Below the pieces are notes generated by a model that had not been told where the DNA came from, did not search any database, and was given only the letters and a program-made list of their open reading frames with translations. Positions 37,755-45,640 of a DNA stretch of 64,000 nt are shown one piece after another. The stretch is from Candidatus Poribacteria bacterium (GTDB lineage Bacteria; Poribacteria; WGA-4E; JAJDTR01). Position 1 is the stretch's first letter. Each line of letters starts with the position of its first letter. The stretch covers positions 40,959-104,958 of the forward strand of contig JAPPIK010000048.1 of assembly GCA_028820655.1 (NCBI GenBank). The letters are read 5' to 3'. The position numbers and the translations under genes are program-made.

Positions 37755-38974
37755 GCTTTCACCGCAGGAATGAGAACCTGTTTGAAAAACACATTTGTAG
37801 GCTGCGATCAAAGAAGCGAAAAGCGACTGCGATAGCAAAATCCTGTGCAATGTCGAACGTTGCTTGGTAGCGTGCCATTATCCCTATCGGAATAAATCTG
37901 TCAGTAGGTAAGACTCGTTTTTGGCTTTATCACTCGCTTTGGAGAAAGTGTCACTTGAACGATTTTCCATCTCTTGCATTCCAGCGGAGTGCAATGTCAA
38001 TAGAACACGATGCCTCCTCACGTCTGCACTCCGGCGGATCAAGGGAGTGGATAGCGACCGCGATAGAGATCCCGGCAATGTGGAGAGTTACTTGAGAGCA
38101 CGCCATTATCCCTGTCGGTATAATTCATTCAGCGAGTAACATTTCGTCTTGAATCTACGACAGGCTCTGAAAACTGCTGTCGAATAGCCCCAGAGGGGAT
38201 CAAGCGAGTGGATAGCGAGTGCGATAGAGATCTTGAAGGTTTATAGGGTCGTGGAGTCACCGCACTCCAAAGCCCCAGAGGGCGACAGGTGCTCGCGCTT
38301 TATTCGCTCCAGCGGAGATCAAGCGACTGACCAAGGAGCACGATGTGGATCTTCAATGTCGAGTGTTACTTGATAGCGCCCCATTATCCCTGCCGGGATG
38401 ATTCTTTCAGCAAGTAACACTGGTTTTTTTCGCTCAATGATTAGCCGTGAAAAGTGTTCCTTCGTCGTCTGGTTTTCACTCCAGCGGAGTGCTATGTCAA
38501 TAGAATCATGATGCGTCCAACCGCCGCACTCCAGCGGAGTGCAATGTCGAGTGTTTCTTGAGAGCGTGCCATTATCCCTATCGGAATAATTCTTTCAGCA
38601 AGCAACACTTACGTCTTTGAATCTACTATAGGCTTTGAAAAGGTGTTCCTTCGTGATCTGGTTTTCACTCCAGCGGAGTGAGATGTCAATAGAACAAGAT
38701 TCCTCCCCGCGTCTGCACTCCAGCGGAGTGCAATGTTGAGTGTTACTTGGTAGCGTGCCATTATCCCTATCGGAATAATTCTTTCAGCAAGCAACGCGCG
38801 TCTTTGGATTTATGACAGGCTTTGAGAAGGTGTTCCTTCGTGGTCTGGTTTTCACTCCAGCGGAGTGAAATGTCAATAGTACACGATTCCTCCCTGCGTC
38901 TGCACTCCAGCGGATCAAGGGAGTGGATAGCGACCGCGATAGAGATCCCGGCAATGTCGAGTGTTTCTTGAGAG
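37755..38974. repeat. 1.2-kb array of about 188-bp repeats with nested GATC-elements
   Basis: Three clear tandem units are marked by CATTATCCCTATCGGAATAA at about 38382, 38570 and 38759. Each unit carries two CACTCCAGCGGAGTG palindromes about 50 bp apart (38477/38527, 38666/38716, 38853/38903). Older remnants lie at 37876 and 38103. GATC-elements interrupt the palindromes at 38037-38075, 38317-38353 and 38913-38951, and a CCCCAGAGGGG string at 38198-38234. The array ends where the truncated transporter gene begins (about 38970). Open frames inside are repeats, not genes. Confidence 0.85.
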
Positions 38975-40071
38975 AAATCCGTACTATTTCAAAGTCGATC
39001 CGGAGGGAAACCAGCTTCCATATCTTGATGGCGTACAGAACTTCCTTGTCAACGATTTGGAGACCGGATATCTCAAGATATTTGCCGGTGATGTGGACGT
39101 AGAATTTGCCTGCTGCGATAATCCATCGCATTTCAGAATAAACGAAGATGTCGGCGGTTATCGCACGACTCCCGCATTCGGAAGTCCGGGGTTCGTAACC
39201 ACAATCTACTTTAATTTAACCCATGAAAATCCTGCGGTGCGCGAAGTATTCTTGTACAGGCGGTTTCGCGTTGCGCTTTCGGTGGCTATGGATAGGGATG
39301 AAATGAACGAGGTCTTCCGAGATGGGCTGATGGTTGTTTCCAATGCCGCACCGGCTGACGGCCCCCGTACCACGGCGCGTCGGGGAAGTATATCGCCTAC
39401 ACGCGCCATGACCCCGGTTTGGCGAATCAGTTGCTGGACGAGATGAACTTGAAATGGGGCGCGAATCGAGAAACGAGATGGCTTCCGGACGGCTCCCCCG
39501 CGCAGTTCGTTCTAATGGCACGCACCGACTTGCGCGTGTCTGATGTTCCCATGTTGGAGATGCTTCAGCAGGATTGGAAGGCTGTCGGTATTGACATCTC
39601 GATCAACCCGCGCGAAGCGGCATTCATTGCTGAACGAGTGGCTGCCAATAAATTTGACATGTTCACCGGCGACGGCACGTTTGGCGGCGGGGTACGCCCG
39701 ACGCGTCTGGGTGTGCGTGGCTCAATGGTGCCGAGTAACCCGGTTTCATGGAATCAAGCCTCTCCGGGCTGGACGCGATGGGTGCATTCCGATGGGGCAG
39801 AAGGTGTCGAGCCGCCTGCGGATTTCAAACGTCTCTACCAGTTATACCGGAAGTTTCTACTTGAAACGGACGAAGGAGCAAGAATTGCGCTGAAAACGAG
39901 ATGCTTGCCATTCACGCTGAAAACCTGTGGTTCCTCGTGGTGCTGAAGATTGCCGCCATTTCGGCTACTCGAAACATCGTGGTTTACAACAGGATGGACA
40001 ACGTGCCGCTTCCTTTGCCCGGGGACTACACCTACGGCAAACCGGAAACCTGGTCGATCGGCCTCCAGTAG
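38975..40071 (+). pseudogene. Peptide-type ABC transporter substrate-binding protein, 5'-truncated and frameshifted
   Basis: C-terminal two thirds of a family 5 (oligopeptide/dipeptide) solute-binding protein. It opens mid-protein with ERNPYYFKVDPEGNQLPYLDGVQ, a block normally around residue 250. The N-terminus and signal peptide are missing and are replaced by the repeat array. The frame shifts near 39364-39370, at GGCCCCCGTACC: restoring GGCCCG TAC gives YHGASGKYIAYTRHDPGLANQLLDEMNLKWG. It shifts again near 39893-39903, after which MLAIHAENLWFLVVLKIAAISATRN and the C-terminal TYGKPETWSIGLQ follow to the stop at 40069-40071. Both shifts sit at or near short homopolymers. It is upstream of intact transporter genes, so it is presumably the decayed receptor of that system. 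Confidence 0.85.
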
Positions 40072-40290: not shown

Positions 40291-41358
40291 ATGAACACCG
40301 TTAACAATTCTAACAGAGACTGGCTCATAGACATAAAGGATCTTCACGTCAAATTTTCTCAGGACGACGAAACAATCAATGCTGTGAACGGCGTTGATAT
40401 CCGCGTTCACAAGGGCGAGGCGGTCGGAATTGTTGGAGAGAGCGGCTGCGGGAAGACGGTCACCTCGTATTCAATGTTGAACATACTCCCTTCAAACGGA
40501 GAAATCGTGTCCGGCGAAGTGAGGTACCGCGAGGACAACGGGAACGTTATCGACATTACGAGGCTTAACCCGCGAAGTCGAGAGATGAGGAGATTGAGGG
40601 GCGGCGAAATCGCCATGATATTCCAAGAACCGATGGCATCATTCAGTCCCGTCCACACGATTAGGGACCAGATCGCCGAAGGCATTCTGTTGCATCAACC
40701 ACCCAAGGACAAAAGAGTCCGAGAGATAATCATCGAATACCTCGGCATGGTGGGCATTTCAAATCCGGAGCGGGCAATAGACGCGTATCCATTCCAGCTC
40801 AGTGGCGGTATGAGACAGCGGGCCATGATTGCCATGGCTTTAGCCTGCAATCCGAAAGTGCTAGTTGCCGACGAACCAACGACGGCGCTTGATGTGACCA
40901 TTCAAGCACAGGTGCTTATGCTGATTAAAAAGATGCAGCAAGAGCTAGGCCTTGCACTTGTCCTGATCACGCACGACCTCGGCGTCATAGCACACATGGC
41001 GGACTTTGTCTACGTGATGTATCTTGGCCGCGTCGTCGAGAGGGGGCCCGTGGTCAAGATATTCAACAGTCCGAAACACCCGTACACTCGTGATCTCATA
41101 CGGTCGATCCCCAAACTGAACACACCGGAAAAGAGGCTTGCCACTATTCAAGGCAACGTGCCGGACGCGTCCCGCCTGCCATCCGGGTGTGCATTCCACC
41201 CGCGCTGCCGTGAGATAATCGGAGAGACCTGCCGCCGGGACCAGCCGGTTCTGGAGGAAGTTGAAGCGGATCATTTTGCCGGGTGCTTCCTCTACTCGAC
41301 CCATGAGGAGACGGAACCGAACACGGGAGGGACCGACAGTGTCGAATACCCCTCATGA
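40291..41358 (+). CDS. Oligopeptide/dipeptide ABC transporter ATPase, OppD/DppD type
   Basis: A 355-residue ATPase energising peptide (or similar small-molecule) import. Seen: Walker A GIVGESGCGKTVTSYS, FQEPMASFSPVHTIRDQI Q-loop, ABC signature LSGGMRQRAMIAMALACNPKVLVADEPTTALDVT (Walker B DEPT), H-switch LVLITHDLGVIAHMADFVYVMYLGRVVERG. The C-terminal oligopeptide-type region is HPYTRDLIRSIPKL...PSGCAFHPRCREIIGETCRRDQPVL, whose Cys-rich CxxHPRC...C pattern suits a 4Fe-4S site reported for such ATPases. It overlaps the next ATPase gene by 20 nt. All catalytic motifs are intact. Confidence 0.92.
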   Translation: MNTVNNSNRDWLIDIKDLHVKFSQDDETINAVNGVDIRVHKGEAVGIVGESGCGKTVTSYSMLNILPSNGEIVSGEVRYREDNGNVIDITRLNPRSREMRRLRGGEIAMIFQEPMASFSPVHTIRDQIAEGILLHQPPKDKRVREIIIEYLGMVGISNPERAIDAYPFQLSGGMRQRAMIAMALACNPKVLVADEPTTALDVTIQAQVLMLIKKMQQELGLALVLITHDLGVIAHMADFVYVMYLGRVVERGPVVKIFNSPKHPYTRDLIRSIPKLNTPEKRLATIQGNVPDASRLPSGCAFHPRCREIIGETCRRDQPVLEEVEADHFAGCFLYSTHEETEPNTGGTDSVEYPS

Positions 41359-42358
41359 GGCTATCCTCGATGTTCGCCATCTAAAGAAATACTTCCCCAT
41401 CGAGAAGGGGTTCCTTCGACGGGTTGCCGGCTATGTGCGTGCCGTCGATGACGTAAGTTTTTCAGTGCGGAAGGGACAGACCATGGGGCTCGTGGGTGAG
41501 AGTGGGTGCGGCAAGACGACGACGGCTTGGACTATCATCCGTCTCCACGAAGCCACTGCCGGCGAGGTTTACTTCAGGGTAAGGGACGGTGAAATTTTAG
41601 ACATGGCGGCGCTTGAGAAGGGTCGATTAAAGGAGATCCGTCGATACATGGGCGTCGTGTTTCAGGATCCGTATGCATCGCTCAACCCCCGCAAGACAGT
41701 ATTGGATATAGTCGCGGACCCTCTCCTCAACTACGGCGTGAAGCGCGGCGAACGCGAAGCGCGCGTGGCGGAATTGCTTACCATGGTAGGGCTTGATCCG
41801 AGTACTATGCCGAGGTATCCCCACGCTTTTAGTGGCGGGCAAAGGCAACGAATCGGGATTGCCCGAGCCTTGGCGCTTAGTCCTTCGCTGCTTATCGCAG
41901 ATGAACCGGTGTCTGCGCTCGATGTGTCCGTGCAGGCGCAAATCCTCAACCTGTTGAGTGATCTCAGGGACAAACTCGGGTTGAGTTATCTGTTCATCGC
42001 GCACGATCTGAGTGTCATTCAGCATATATGCGACCGGGTAGCCGTGATGTATATGGGATCAATTGTGGAGGAGGCGGATACGGAGGTGTTGTTTTCGCAA
42101 CCGGCGCATCCCTACACAGCAAGTTTGATGGCGGCGCTTCCTGTTCCGGATCCTCACAAACCGTGGAATCCGAAGTTGAATGGAGAGGTGGGAAAACCGT
42201 CGGAAACGGGGAGCGGGTGCGTGTTTGCCCACCGTTGCCCCTATGCCGATCAAATCTGCCATGATGAAACACCGACGCTTGAAACCAAGACAACCGACAC
42301 GAAAGATTCGCATCTTGTCGCCTGCCATTTCGCAGATGAACTGCAACTTGACGCCTAG
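41339..42358 (+). CDS. Oligopeptide/dipeptide ABC transporter ATPase, OppF/DppF type
   Basis: A 339-residue partner ATPase. Seen: LDVRHLKKYFPIEKGFLRRVAGYVRAVDDVSFSVRKGQTMGLVGESGCGKTTTAWTIIRL (Walker A), FQDPYASLNPRKTVLDIV, signature FSGGQRQRIGIARALALSPSLLIADEPVSALDVS, LSYLFIAHDLSVIQHICDRVAVMYMGSIVEE and the C-terminal HPYTASLMAALPVPDP...GSGCVFAHRCPYADQICHDETPTL, with the same Cys pattern. The start is GTG at 41339, supported by GGGAGGG upstream; the reading frame is open further upstream (from 41261) inside oppD. Forms a heterodimer with the preceding ATPase. Confidence 0.92.
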   Translation: MSNTPHEAILDVRHLKKYFPIEKGFLRRVAGYVRAVDDVSFSVRKGQTMGLVGESGCGKTTTAWTIIRLHEATAGEVYFRVRDGEILDMAALEKGRLKEIRRYMGVVFQDPYASLNPRKTVLDIVADPLLNYGVKRGEREARVAELLTMVGLDPSTMPRYPHAFSGGQRQRIGIARALALSPSLLIADEPVSALDVSVQAQILNLLSDLRDKLGLSYLFIAHDLSVIQHICDRVAVMYMGSIVEEADTEVLFSQPAHPYTASLMAALPVPDPHKPWNPKLNGEVGKPSETGSGCVFAHRCPYADQICHDETPTLETKTTDTKDSHLVACHFADELQLDA

Positions 42359-42445: not shown

Positions 42446-42562
42446 TTCTGTACCACAATCTGTTAGATTGTGGGAAACTGTTTAGTCCATCAGTCTATAT
42501 CGACTCTGTCGGTTTGTAGTAGTAATCAAGCGACTGAATAGGGAGTGCGATAGAGATCCCAT
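42446..42562. repeat. CTGTTAG palindrome followed by GATC-element
   Basis: A perfect palindrome with arms CCACAATCT and AGATTGTGG around GTT lies at 42453-42473. About 50 bp later comes a GATC-element (AATCAAGCGACTGAATAGGG...GATAGAGATCCC, 42525-42561). The same pairing of the two families, in the same order, is seen at 31291 and 12774. Confidence 0.7.
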
Positions 42563-42599
42563 TCATTGCACGTCTGTTCTGGGCATGTAAACTCCCGGC

Positions 42600-43325
42600 T
42601 CGTCGGAATTAGCATCGTACTTCCCTACTCGGCGTGTGTCCTGACCGCTCGGTCTGGATTGGCAAATCCAGACTGATTTTATCTTTTCATAAAACCTACG
42701 TAGTTGGCTTGTGCTAGTGCCAATCATTGCATCTGCGGCACAGTATTATGATTCCCGATTTATCGTGCTTGGTTTCGTACTTCGTTACTCGGTGCGTTCC
42801 TTACCTGCTGGGTCTGGATTGGCAAATCCAGACCGAGTTGATCTTTTCATAGAACCTGCGTATTTTGCCCGTGCTAGTGCCAATCATTGCATCTGCGGCA
42901 CAGTATTATGATTCCTGATTTATCGTGATTTGGTTTCATACTCCGTTACTCGGCGCGTTCCTTTCCTGCTCGGTCTGGATTGGCAAATCCAGACTGATTT
43001 TATCTTTTCATAAAACCTACGTAGTTGGCTTGTGCTAGTGCCAATCATTGCATCTGCGGCACAGTATTATGATTCCCGATTTATCGTGCTTGGTTTCGTA
43101 CTTCGTTACTCGGTGCGTTCCTTACCTGCTGGGTCTGGATTGGCAAATCCAGACCGAGTTGATCTTTTCATAGAACCTGCGTATTTTGCCCGTGCTAGTG
43201 CCAATCATTGCATCTGCGGCACAGTATTATGATGACCTACTTATCGTGCTTGGTTTCATACTCCGTTACTCGATGCGTTCCTTTCCTGCTGGGTCTGGAT
43301 TGGCAAATCCAGACCGGTTGACTAG
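42600..43325. repeat. 160-bp tandem repeat array with a hairpin in each unit
   Basis: Four and a half units with boundaries marked by GTGCTAGTGCCAATCATTGC at 42711, 42871, 43032 and 43192 (period 160-161). Alternate units are more alike: 42711-42911 and 43032-43232 are identical, so a 321-bp dimer was duplicated recently. Each unit has a perfect hairpin with arms GGTCTGGATT and AATCCAGACC (AATCCAGACT in the first and third) around GGCA, starting at about 42651, 42810, 42970, 43131 and 43292. No ribosome-binding sites; frames inside are repeats. The array separates the ATPase and permease genes of one transporter. Confidence 0.9.
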
Positions 43326-43458
43326 ACAGCTACGACAAATTCCCGAAGTGCATGATCTTTGCTACCACAATGATAGATTTTTTTCTGACGTAGAAACTCT
43401 TAAAGAGCAATGAGGATTGTTAATCCGTATTAACGGATTCCATGTGTAATCAAGTATT

Positions 43459-44445
43459 ATGCAAGGCTACATTATCCGTAGGCTCCTCTATTTCATTCCA
43501 ACCCTGATTCTAATCTCGATAGACTCGTTTGCTGTGATTCAAGCGCCTCCCCGAGACTTTGTGACCACCCTGGTCGTACAGATGGAAGCGCGGGGCGATC
43601 AGGTTGATGAGGATCTGATCAATGCCCTGAGAGCGCGCTACGGGTTGGGTAAACCCTTATGGCAGCAATACCTTATATGGATCGGAAACATCCTGATAGG
43701 AGACTTGGGCGTGTCCATGGCATACAACCAACCGGTGTCGAGGATAATCATGGATCGCCTGCCGTGGAGTCTCCTCTTTTCATTTTCGGCGTTCCTAATC
43801 GTGTATGCAATCGGGTTCCCCATAGGGTTTCTCTCGGCAGTGCGCCAATACTCGATTGCCGACTACTTCCTTACGTTCGTCGGATTCATCGGTCTTGCCA
43901 TACCGAACTTTATGCTCGCGCTCATTTTGTTATGGGGACACTTTGAAGCTACCGGCCAAGCGTTGGTAGGAATATTCTCGGTAGAATACGCCGTGGCACC
44001 GTGGAGTTTTGGAAAGTTTCTTGACTTGCTCTATCATCTTTGGATACCCGCCTTGATTGTCGGCACGGCAGGTACGACTGGGTTAATACGAATCGTCCGT
44101 GCGAATCTGCTTGATGAACGAAAAAAACCGTACGTCACGGCCGCTAGGGCAAAAGGGGTGTCCGAGACCAGGCTTATCCTCAATTATCCCGTACGGTTGG
44201 CAATCAATCCCGTCATCAGCAATATCGGTTATGTTTTACTGGCGCTGATAAGCGGAGAAGTGATCACATCGATTGTCATTGGACTACCAACGATAGGTCC
44301 GGTATTACTGCGTGCGCTGCAAACCGAGGACATGTATTTGGCAGGCAGCATTGTGCTTATCTTGAGCGTTCTTACCTTGGTTGGAACGTTGGTGTCCAAC
44401 CTGCTGCTGGCCGTCATCGATCCGAGAATCAGGCATGGTGTGTAG
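43459..44445 (+). CDS. Oligopeptide/dipeptide ABC transporter permease, OppB/DppB type
   Basis: A 328-residue inner-membrane permease. N-terminal helix YIIRRLLYFIPTLILISIDSFAVIQAPP; periplasmic region with LRARYGLGKPLWQQYLIWIGNILIGDLGVSMAYNQPVSRIIMDRLPWSLLFSF; then five further helices. The EAA loop that contacts the ATPase is RIVRANLLDERKKPYVTAARAKGVSETRLILNYPVRLAINPVISNIGYVL. C-terminus GSIVLILSVLTLVGTLVSNLLLAVIDPRIRHGV is typical. It comes after the hairpin array and 37 nt before the second permease. Shine-Dalgarno sequence is weak, so translation may depend on leader structure. Confidence 0.92.
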   Translation: MQGYIIRRLLYFIPTLILISIDSFAVIQAPPRDFVTTLVVQMEARGDQVDEDLINALRARYGLGKPLWQQYLIWIGNILIGDLGVSMAYNQPVSRIIMDRLPWSLLFSFSAFLIVYAIGFPIGFLSAVRQYSIADYFLTFVGFIGLAIPNFMLALILLWGHFEATGQALVGIFSVEYAVAPWSFGKFLDLLYHLWIPALIVGTAGTTGLIRIVRANLLDERKKPYVTAARAKGVSETRLILNYPVRLAINPVISNIGYVLLALISGEVITSIVIGLPTIGPVLLRALQTEDMYLAGSIVLILSVLTLVGTLVSNLLLAVIDPRIRHGV

Positions 44446-44482
44446 GAACTGATTGCGTCTCCAGAGTGTGAACGGAATTCCT

Positions 44483-45640
44483 ATGAATGACAGAGAACGG
44501 GTTAGCGTTGGTTCTCAATCTCAAACTGAGGATAATCTCCTTCATGAAACACAAGCGGATTCATCGGCTTTCTCCAGAGCTTCTCAGTGGCAGTTGATTC
44601 GATGGCGGTTCCTCAAACATCGGGTCGCCGTCATCGCACTCGGTGTGCTGGCTCTTCTCTATCTCTGTGCTTTGTTCGCCGAGTTCGTCGCGCCTTACGA
44701 TCCCCGCAGCATCGACTCAAAATATACCCACGCTCCGCCGCAACGGATCAGAATCTTGTACAACGGACAACTCTCCTTGCCTTATGTCTTTCCCGTTGTG
44801 AAGGGGCGTGATCCGCAGACACTTGCGACGCAGTACACCGAGAATACGAACGCGCCTTCAAGACTGCGGCTATTTGCCCGCGGCGATTCCTACAGATTGT
44901 GGGGGATGCTAGAGAGCGACATACATCTGTTCGGCGTGAAAAACGGAAGGTTCATGCCCTTTGGCGGGGACGCAGCAGGACGCGATATCTTCTCTAGGAC
45001 GATTTTCGGCGCAAGGCTCTCTCTAACCATCGGACTGTTGGGCGTCTTTCTGGCGCTACTGTTGGGAATCCTTCTCGGGGGAATATCGGGATATTTTGGC
45101 CGGACCCCAGATGTGCTGATTCAGCGCCTTATCGAGACACTGCGGAGCATTCCGACGCTTCCGCTGTGGCTCGCACTGAGTGTCGCCCTCCCTGACCACT
45201 GGTCTATCCCCCAACGGTTTATCGCAATTACGGTCGTGCTCTCCATCGTCGGGTGGGCAGACCTTGCCCGCGAAGTGCGAGGGAAGTTTATGGCATTACG
45301 AGAGGAGGGCTTCGTTCGGGCGGCAGAGTTGGGCGGCGCGAGCACGCGGAGGCTTATTTTCTCCCACATGCTGCCTTCGTTCTACAGCCACATCATCGCG
45401 GCCACCACACTAAGCGTTCCCGTGATGATCCTCGGCGAAACCACGTCGAGTTTTCTGAGTCTTGGATTGCAAGCACCGGCAATCAGTTGGGGTGTGCTCC
45501 TGAGCGATGCACAGCATTTTCGGGTCATCTCCCAAACTCCGTGGTTCATGATTCCCGGTCTGTTTGTGGTCGTTACCGTCCTCGCATTCAACTTCTTGGG
45601 CGACGGGTTGCGAGACGCGGCAGATCCGTATGCCAACTAA
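44483..45640 (+). CDS. Oligopeptide/dipeptide ABC transporter permease, OppC/DppC type
   Basis: A 385-residue inner-membrane permease. N-terminal cytoplasmic tail, then the first helix in QLIRWRFLKHRVAVIALGVLALLYLCALFAEFVAPYDPRSID. A periplasmic insert of about 100 residues (KYTHAPPQRIRILYNGQLSLPYVFPVVKGRD...) resembles those of a subgroup of OppC proteins. Then GGDAAGRDIFSRTIFGARLSLTIGLLGVFLALLLGILLGGISGYFG, EAA loop LAREVRGKFMALREEGFVRAAELGGASTRRLIFSHMLPSFYSHI and LGETTSSFLSLGLQAPAISWGVLLSDA. I use the ATG at 44483; a TTG frame from 44453 is an alternative. Confidence 0.92.
   Translation: MNDRERVSVGSQSQTEDNLLHETQADSSAFSRASQWQLIRWRFLKHRVAVIALGVLALLYLCALFAEFVAPYDPRSIDSKYTHAPPQRIRILYNGQLSLPYVFPVVKGRDPQTLATQYTENTNAPSRLRLFARGDSYRLWGMLESDIHLFGVKNGRFMPFGGDAAGRDIFSRTIFGARLSLTIGLLGVFLALLLGILLGGISGYFGRTPDVLIQRLIETLRSIPTLPLWLALSVALPDHWSIPQRFIAITVVLSIVGWADLAREVRGKFMALREEGFVRAAELGGASTRRLIFSHMLPSFYSHIIAATTLSVPVMILGETTSSFLSLGLQAPAISWGVLLSDAQHFRVISQTPWFMIPGLFVVVTVLAFNFLGDGLRDAADPYAN

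Follow-up and report, generated by a model that had tools for sequence, protein, structure and literature searches.

A tandem hairpin array between transporter genes of a Poribacteria genome is best explained as the expanded interior of a REP-bearing MITE with IS66-type ends

The tandem hairpin array that separates the ATPase and permease genes of an Opp-type transporter locus in Candidatus Poribacteria is very probably the expanded interior of a single non-autonomous MITE copy, one that has IS66-type ends and carries a REP palindrome, and would represent mainly selfish DNA. Selfish repeat DNA, not a tuning device, is thus the most likely description of the array. Positions refer to the window, that is, the whole stretch of 64,000 nucleotides analysed here (contig JAPPIK010000048.1). 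It belongs to a metagenome-assembled genome (G000) of 5.88 Mb in 61 contigs, and the copy number of the array is that given by this single metagenome assembly.

The initial annotation had described an array of 160-bp units, and TRF confirms it on the forward strand at 42615–43321, with a period of 160 bp and 4.4 copies; the same region can also be read as a period of 321 bp in 2.2 copies. Five hairpins with the consensus GGTCTGGATT-GGCA-AATCCAGAC(C/T) occupy 42651–42674, 42811–42834, 42972–42995, 43132–43155 and 43292–43315 of the forward strand (none in 100 dinucleotide shuffles of the window), all in direct rather than alternating orientation. The tetranucleotide GCTC precedes two of the five (hairpins 1 and 3) and is changed to GCTG before hairpins 2, 4 and 5. 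A perfect 10-bp stem had been attributed to every unit, which is accurate for three of the five hairpins; in units 1 and 3 the terminal GACT makes the outermost pair G-T. The previously proposed recent duplication of a 321-bp dimer is borne out by an exact repeat of 266 consecutive bases, with 42647–42912 (forward strand) identical to 42968–43233 at an offset of 321. A CRISPR array was rejected because the intervals between the hairpins are themselves repeated, at 136 to 152 identical positions of 160, and no curated RNA family was matched in an Rfam search at E up to 1.

The array lies inside a larger element of 860 bp (42474–43333) that has terminal inverted repeats at both ends and no open frame of at least 80 aa. 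The left terminal repeat, GAAACTGTTTAGTCCATC (42474–42491, forward strand), reads GAAACTGTTTAGTCCA from 42474, with one mismatch to the 16-base consensus, while the right one directly adjoins hairpin 5 (43316–43333, reverse strand) and is degenerate, with GGTTGACTAGACAGCTAC versus GGTGGACTAAACAGTTAC in the family (three mismatches). Two-hairpin relatives with the same spacer were found at C4:26160-26531 (372 bp) and on sister contig G001:C119, where the left end is eroded, and the repeated unit of the window array is MITE interior sequence common to both. Given these relatives, the most plausible reading of the window copy is a two-hairpin element that gained about three units. Its subterminal module, ATCAAGCG..GCGATAGAGATCCC (42525–42560, forward strand), is aligned with the same two elements and is a second dispersed repeat common to other loci; this module, ATCAAGCGAGTGGATAGCGAGTGCGATAGAGATCCC and variants (in the window and at L050, L066 and L072), often adjoins the hairpin or an end of the MITE. 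The window copy lacks a target-site duplication (its flanks, GATTGTGG and GACAAATT, match at two of eight bases). Together with the degenerate right end, this leaves its exact insertion history uncertain: the copy may be a recombinant, or an insertion old enough to have eroded. Other REP arrays of the same genome (on C30, C57, C18 and C8) show that expansion in place is recurrent. GCTC-tagged palindrome arrays with other stems lie at G000:C18:111083-111670, C8:25422-25919 and C39:33082-33421, with spacings of about 199, 237 and 317 bp.

A search of the genome for the unit at other loci had been suggested in the initial annotation, and the pattern searches on which all family counts are based found the hairpin to be far from private to the transporter locus, with 71 occurrences genome-wide (at most three mismatches; reversed-pattern control, 0). 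The sister genome G001, the only other genome of the genus searched, holds 30 copies with at most two mismatches. Among 52 hairpins examined in G000, 48 fall outside stop-to-stop frames of at least 150 aa, and such frames cover 72% of the same DNA. The hairpin was absent from viral contigs. Exact matches in Anaerolinea, Sphingobacterium, Lachnospiraceae and others were set aside, as their flanks and mostly their loops differ and they look like unrelated palindromes. Aligned copies terminate in GGTGGACTAAACAGTTAC right after the hairpin, and the reverse complement of this sequence opens the element. Pairing of the ends as GTAACTGTTTAGTCCA.. yields dozens of copies, mostly of 153–441 bp, in which the 8-bp flanks outside the paired ends are identical at all eight positions in 14 copies and at seven of eight in 16; flanks of 7 and 9 bp match at background level only. 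The matching 8-bp flanks are the classical signature of target-site duplication. The end pattern was counted 86 times in G000 and 122 times in the sister. Nearly all other genomes gave counts no higher than the control, which suggests that, among the genomes sampled, the MITE is restricted to this genus. A hairpin-free MITE subfamily of 190–355 bp (L117, L118, L120, L124, L125, L128, L129 and L131) has the same ends and bears exact or near-exact 8-bp duplications.

The likely mover of the MITE is an autonomous IS66-family element of the sister genome that has the same ends. At the start of G001:C161, one nearly complete IS66 transposase gene (PF03050, 3e-45) is followed by the end TGGACTAAACAGTTAC, which is the same right end as that of the MITE. 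Several contigs of the sister genome stop within the ends of the IS66 element, with the same terminal repeat on left-end and right-end contigs, and one of them holds the N-terminal codons of the transposase and overlaps C161 by 28 bases. Three insertions in the sister, read from contig ends, have exact 8-bp duplications, two of them matched by script (CCTCCTAC and CTCCTTTT) and the third, between the C6 flank and C161, read by eye (GAAAAAAG). Duplications of 8 bp are documented for IS66 elements (PMC3281130), as are ends of the GTAAC type, GTAACCG.. (PMC12888890). These matching ends naturally suggest that the MITE would be moved in trans by the IS66 transposase. No IS66 transposase was detected in the assembly of G000, the gene being found only in the sister genome and in G009, and present mobility in G000 is therefore doubtful. 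A 1216-bp stretch bounded by the ends (L127 1801-3016) was considered as an autonomous element and rejected, as it has no transposase frame. On G001:C161 (L198 1410-1480), nothing but the 8-bp duplication GAAAAAAG separates the autonomous IS66 element from the end of a REP-bearing MITE.

The sequence had initially been said to match no named element, a statement that finds no support: the hairpin within this IS66-type MITE is, in form, a REP-type palindrome whose family appears to be linked to a RAYT, judged by the features described for RAYT systems (PMC2817692, PMC8266576). Its pattern is GCTC-N5-GGATT-N4-AATCC-N5. A Y1/HUH transposase gene at C15:271103-271699 has the close inverted flanks GCTC-CTGCTGGATTGCCAAATCCAGCAG and GCTGTGGATTTGCCAATCCACAGC-GAGC, and its product matches NCBIfam NF047646 REP_Tyr_transpos (1.3e-21, 77 bits, for a cut-off of 80) as well as PF01797. 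The protein carries the motifs PNHLHFI and KMEYIHNNP (PNHLHYI and KMEYIHNNP in the G007 homolog), and GCTC-tagged hairpins also flank its homologs in G021 and G007, which are 72–75% identical. GCTC stands on one side of the palindrome in both RAYT-flanking and dispersed copies, and related genomes contain inverted doublets, GCTC-hp..hp-GAGC, as in BIMEs. The outer arms vary by subfamily (GGTCT, CTGCT, GCAGT and GGCTT) while the stem covaries, pairing at 256 of 290 positions compared with 161 after shuffling of the arms (at most 192 across 1000 shuffles). The tagged core, GCTC-N5-GGATT-N4-AATCC, was counted 85 times in G000, 50 in G001, 132 in G007 and 52 in G014 (control, 0); other genomes of family f4 had fewer, families f2 and f3 almost none, and most other genomes about zero. 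No homolog of the C15 RAYT was detected in the sister G001, although hairpins are present there; other PF01797 matches in G000 have no GGATT-core hairpins nearby, and no relative of the C15 RAYT was found by sequence in the PDB.

At the transporter locus, the placement of the array between ATPase and permease genes, as originally annotated, is supported by domain matches on both sides. Upstream are an Opp-type ATPase (DppD/OppD-like, 40291–41358) and a second one (41261–42358, with a true start probably downstream of 41261), both matching PF00005 and PF08352; downstream are permeases of OppB type (43459–44445; PF00528, PF19300) and OppC type (44453–45640; PF00528, PF12911), all on the forward strand. 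The spacer between ATPase and permease genes is 1100 bp in the window versus 128 bp at the orthologous sister locus, where the element is absent. Further upstream, a tblastn search of the window with the 703-aa oligopeptide-binding protein of G001 identified a pseudogene at 38967–40068 (forward strand) in which only residues 336–703 of the sister ortholog remain, in three frames, with the N-terminal 335 residues missing; the gene is intact in the sister. The frame changes could in part be assembly errors, which hardly applies to the missing N-terminal half. Another tandem array (38354–38914, period 189, three copies) is situated where the missing N-terminal part would be, and parts of it match intergenic repeats beside the sister binding-protein gene.

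Of the competing explanations, the one that survives best is still improbable: that the array is a selected, copy-number-tuned attenuator whose units each cause termination or processing of the operon transcript and thereby set the level of permease. Units 1 and 3 do score as intrinsic-terminator-like on the operon strand, with a stem of 12 pairs followed by a T-rich TTTTATCTTT tail at 42649–42676 and, as a second copy, at 42970–42997 (both forward strand; RNA fold −18.6 kcal/mol, z −5.4). Of the 66 hairpins of the family, 5 have such tails, and these all belong to the two-hairpin subfamily; the genes are co-oriented and 128 bp apart in the sister, so they probably form an operon there. Against a selected device, however, only two of the five units fit a terminator, and a terminator scan on shuffles of the region gives 1.2 ± 1.1 such sites by chance. 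The element also belongs to a dispersed mobile family and is missing from the sister locus, and decay of the upstream binding-protein gene makes tuned regulation of the operon unlikely. With their terminator-like form in the direction of the operon, units 1 and 3 make a partial polar effect of the array on permease transcription plausible as a prediction from sequence.

It is quite unlikely that the array is an artefact in which copies were collapsed or misjoined, giving a wrong number of units or a chimeric array. A metagenome assembly, a 266-bp exact duplication that is hard for short reads and the missing target-site duplication are what such an artefact could leave, but the units carry distinct substitutions, two-hairpin forms exist elsewhere and the flanking genes are syntenic with the sister genome. 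A still weaker proposal, that the RAYT alone moved and multiplied the hairpins into BIME- or REPIN-like tandem clusters and that the IS66-type ends are incidental, is highly improbable and was rejected as the main explanation in the light of the matching ends and 8-bp duplications described above. In its favour, REPs with this tag do occur outside the MITE, in the inverted doublets of related genomes and in other tandem arrays, and P. fluorescens SBW25 is known to have REPINs clustered in tandem over more than 700 bp (PMC3116915); yet both terminal repeats bracket the window array, its hairpins do not alternate, its repeated unit is shared MITE interior and three of its five hairpins have lost the GCTC tag.

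Under the preferred reading of an expanded MITE, the ends would derive their mobility from the IS66-family insertion sequence that they match, its transposase acting in trans, and the REP palindrome beside the right end would belong to the family linked to the RAYT, an IS200-like HUH transposase. A two-hairpin version would have inserted between the ATPase and permease genes, after which recombination or replication slippage between the internal repeats may have added about three units, with the 321-bp dimer duplication as the presumed last step. If the two terminator-like hairpins influence permease transcription at all, they would do so as a by-product.

The components are of known kinds (REP and IS66-type MITE) and appear here in a new combination, with a GCTC tag that appears new relative to the literature compared. 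As in REP/RAYT systems (REPtrons, BIMEs and REPINs; PMC2817692, PMC3116915, PMC8266576), there is a short perfect palindrome with an unpaired end tetranucleotide, present in many extragenic copies, with co-variation of the stem, inverted copies flanking an HUH tyrosine transposase gene, and tandem clusters. Unlike in those systems, the tag is GCTC instead of GTAG or CGTC, the top of the stem is a conserved GGATT/AATCC with a loop that is mostly GNCA, most GGTCT-stem copies in this genus ride inside an IS66-type MITE, and the window copies are in direct orientation. Ends starting with GTAAC, 8-bp target duplications and a sister IS66 transposase with matching ends are shared with the IS66 family, whereas the element itself lacks a transposase, resides in an assembly with no detectable IS66 gene and has a REP palindrome beside its right end. 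In Porphyromonas gingivalis, the MITE-borne minisatellite BrickBuilt (PMC4596501) is similarly a dispersed, intergenic tandem array with small inverted ends; its repeats, however, are 23 bp long and have no spacers, whereas the unit here measures about 160 bp, includes a REP hairpin and is expanded in few copies.

These comparisons point to an apparently undescribed REP class, with its RAYT, in a phylum known largely through metagenomes (Poribacteria), and to one palindrome class that would spread as the passenger of an unrelated transposon type. They also suggest that a tandem hairpin array inside an operon need not have been designed for regulation but can come from mobile-element expansion; as far as the transporter locus is concerned, the result is ordinary repeat biology. 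More tentatively, the GCTC palindromes of Poribacteria may, together with a RAYT lineage of their own, constitute a separate REP superfamily, which in this genus hitch-hikes on an IS66-driven MITE such that two transposition systems share one element, and whose expansion in place puts several terminators inside operons; we regard this as possible rather than probable. No relevant paper on Poribacteria with RAYT was apparent from titles, abstracts and single occurrences of the terms. Palindromes tagged GTAG or CGTC, superfamilies distinct in tag from the GCTC class, likewise span many phyla, and some RAYT genes are flanked by unusual composite inverted repeats (PMC3733652); the words GCTC and Poribacteria are absent from the main text of that study. 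In G000, GTAG- and GTAA-tagged palindromes lie near other Y1 transposase genes (C61:100636 and C31:8585; L113 34-54 and 3243-3264, L116 1380-1407), which suggests that this genome has classical GTAG REPs alongside the GCTC class.
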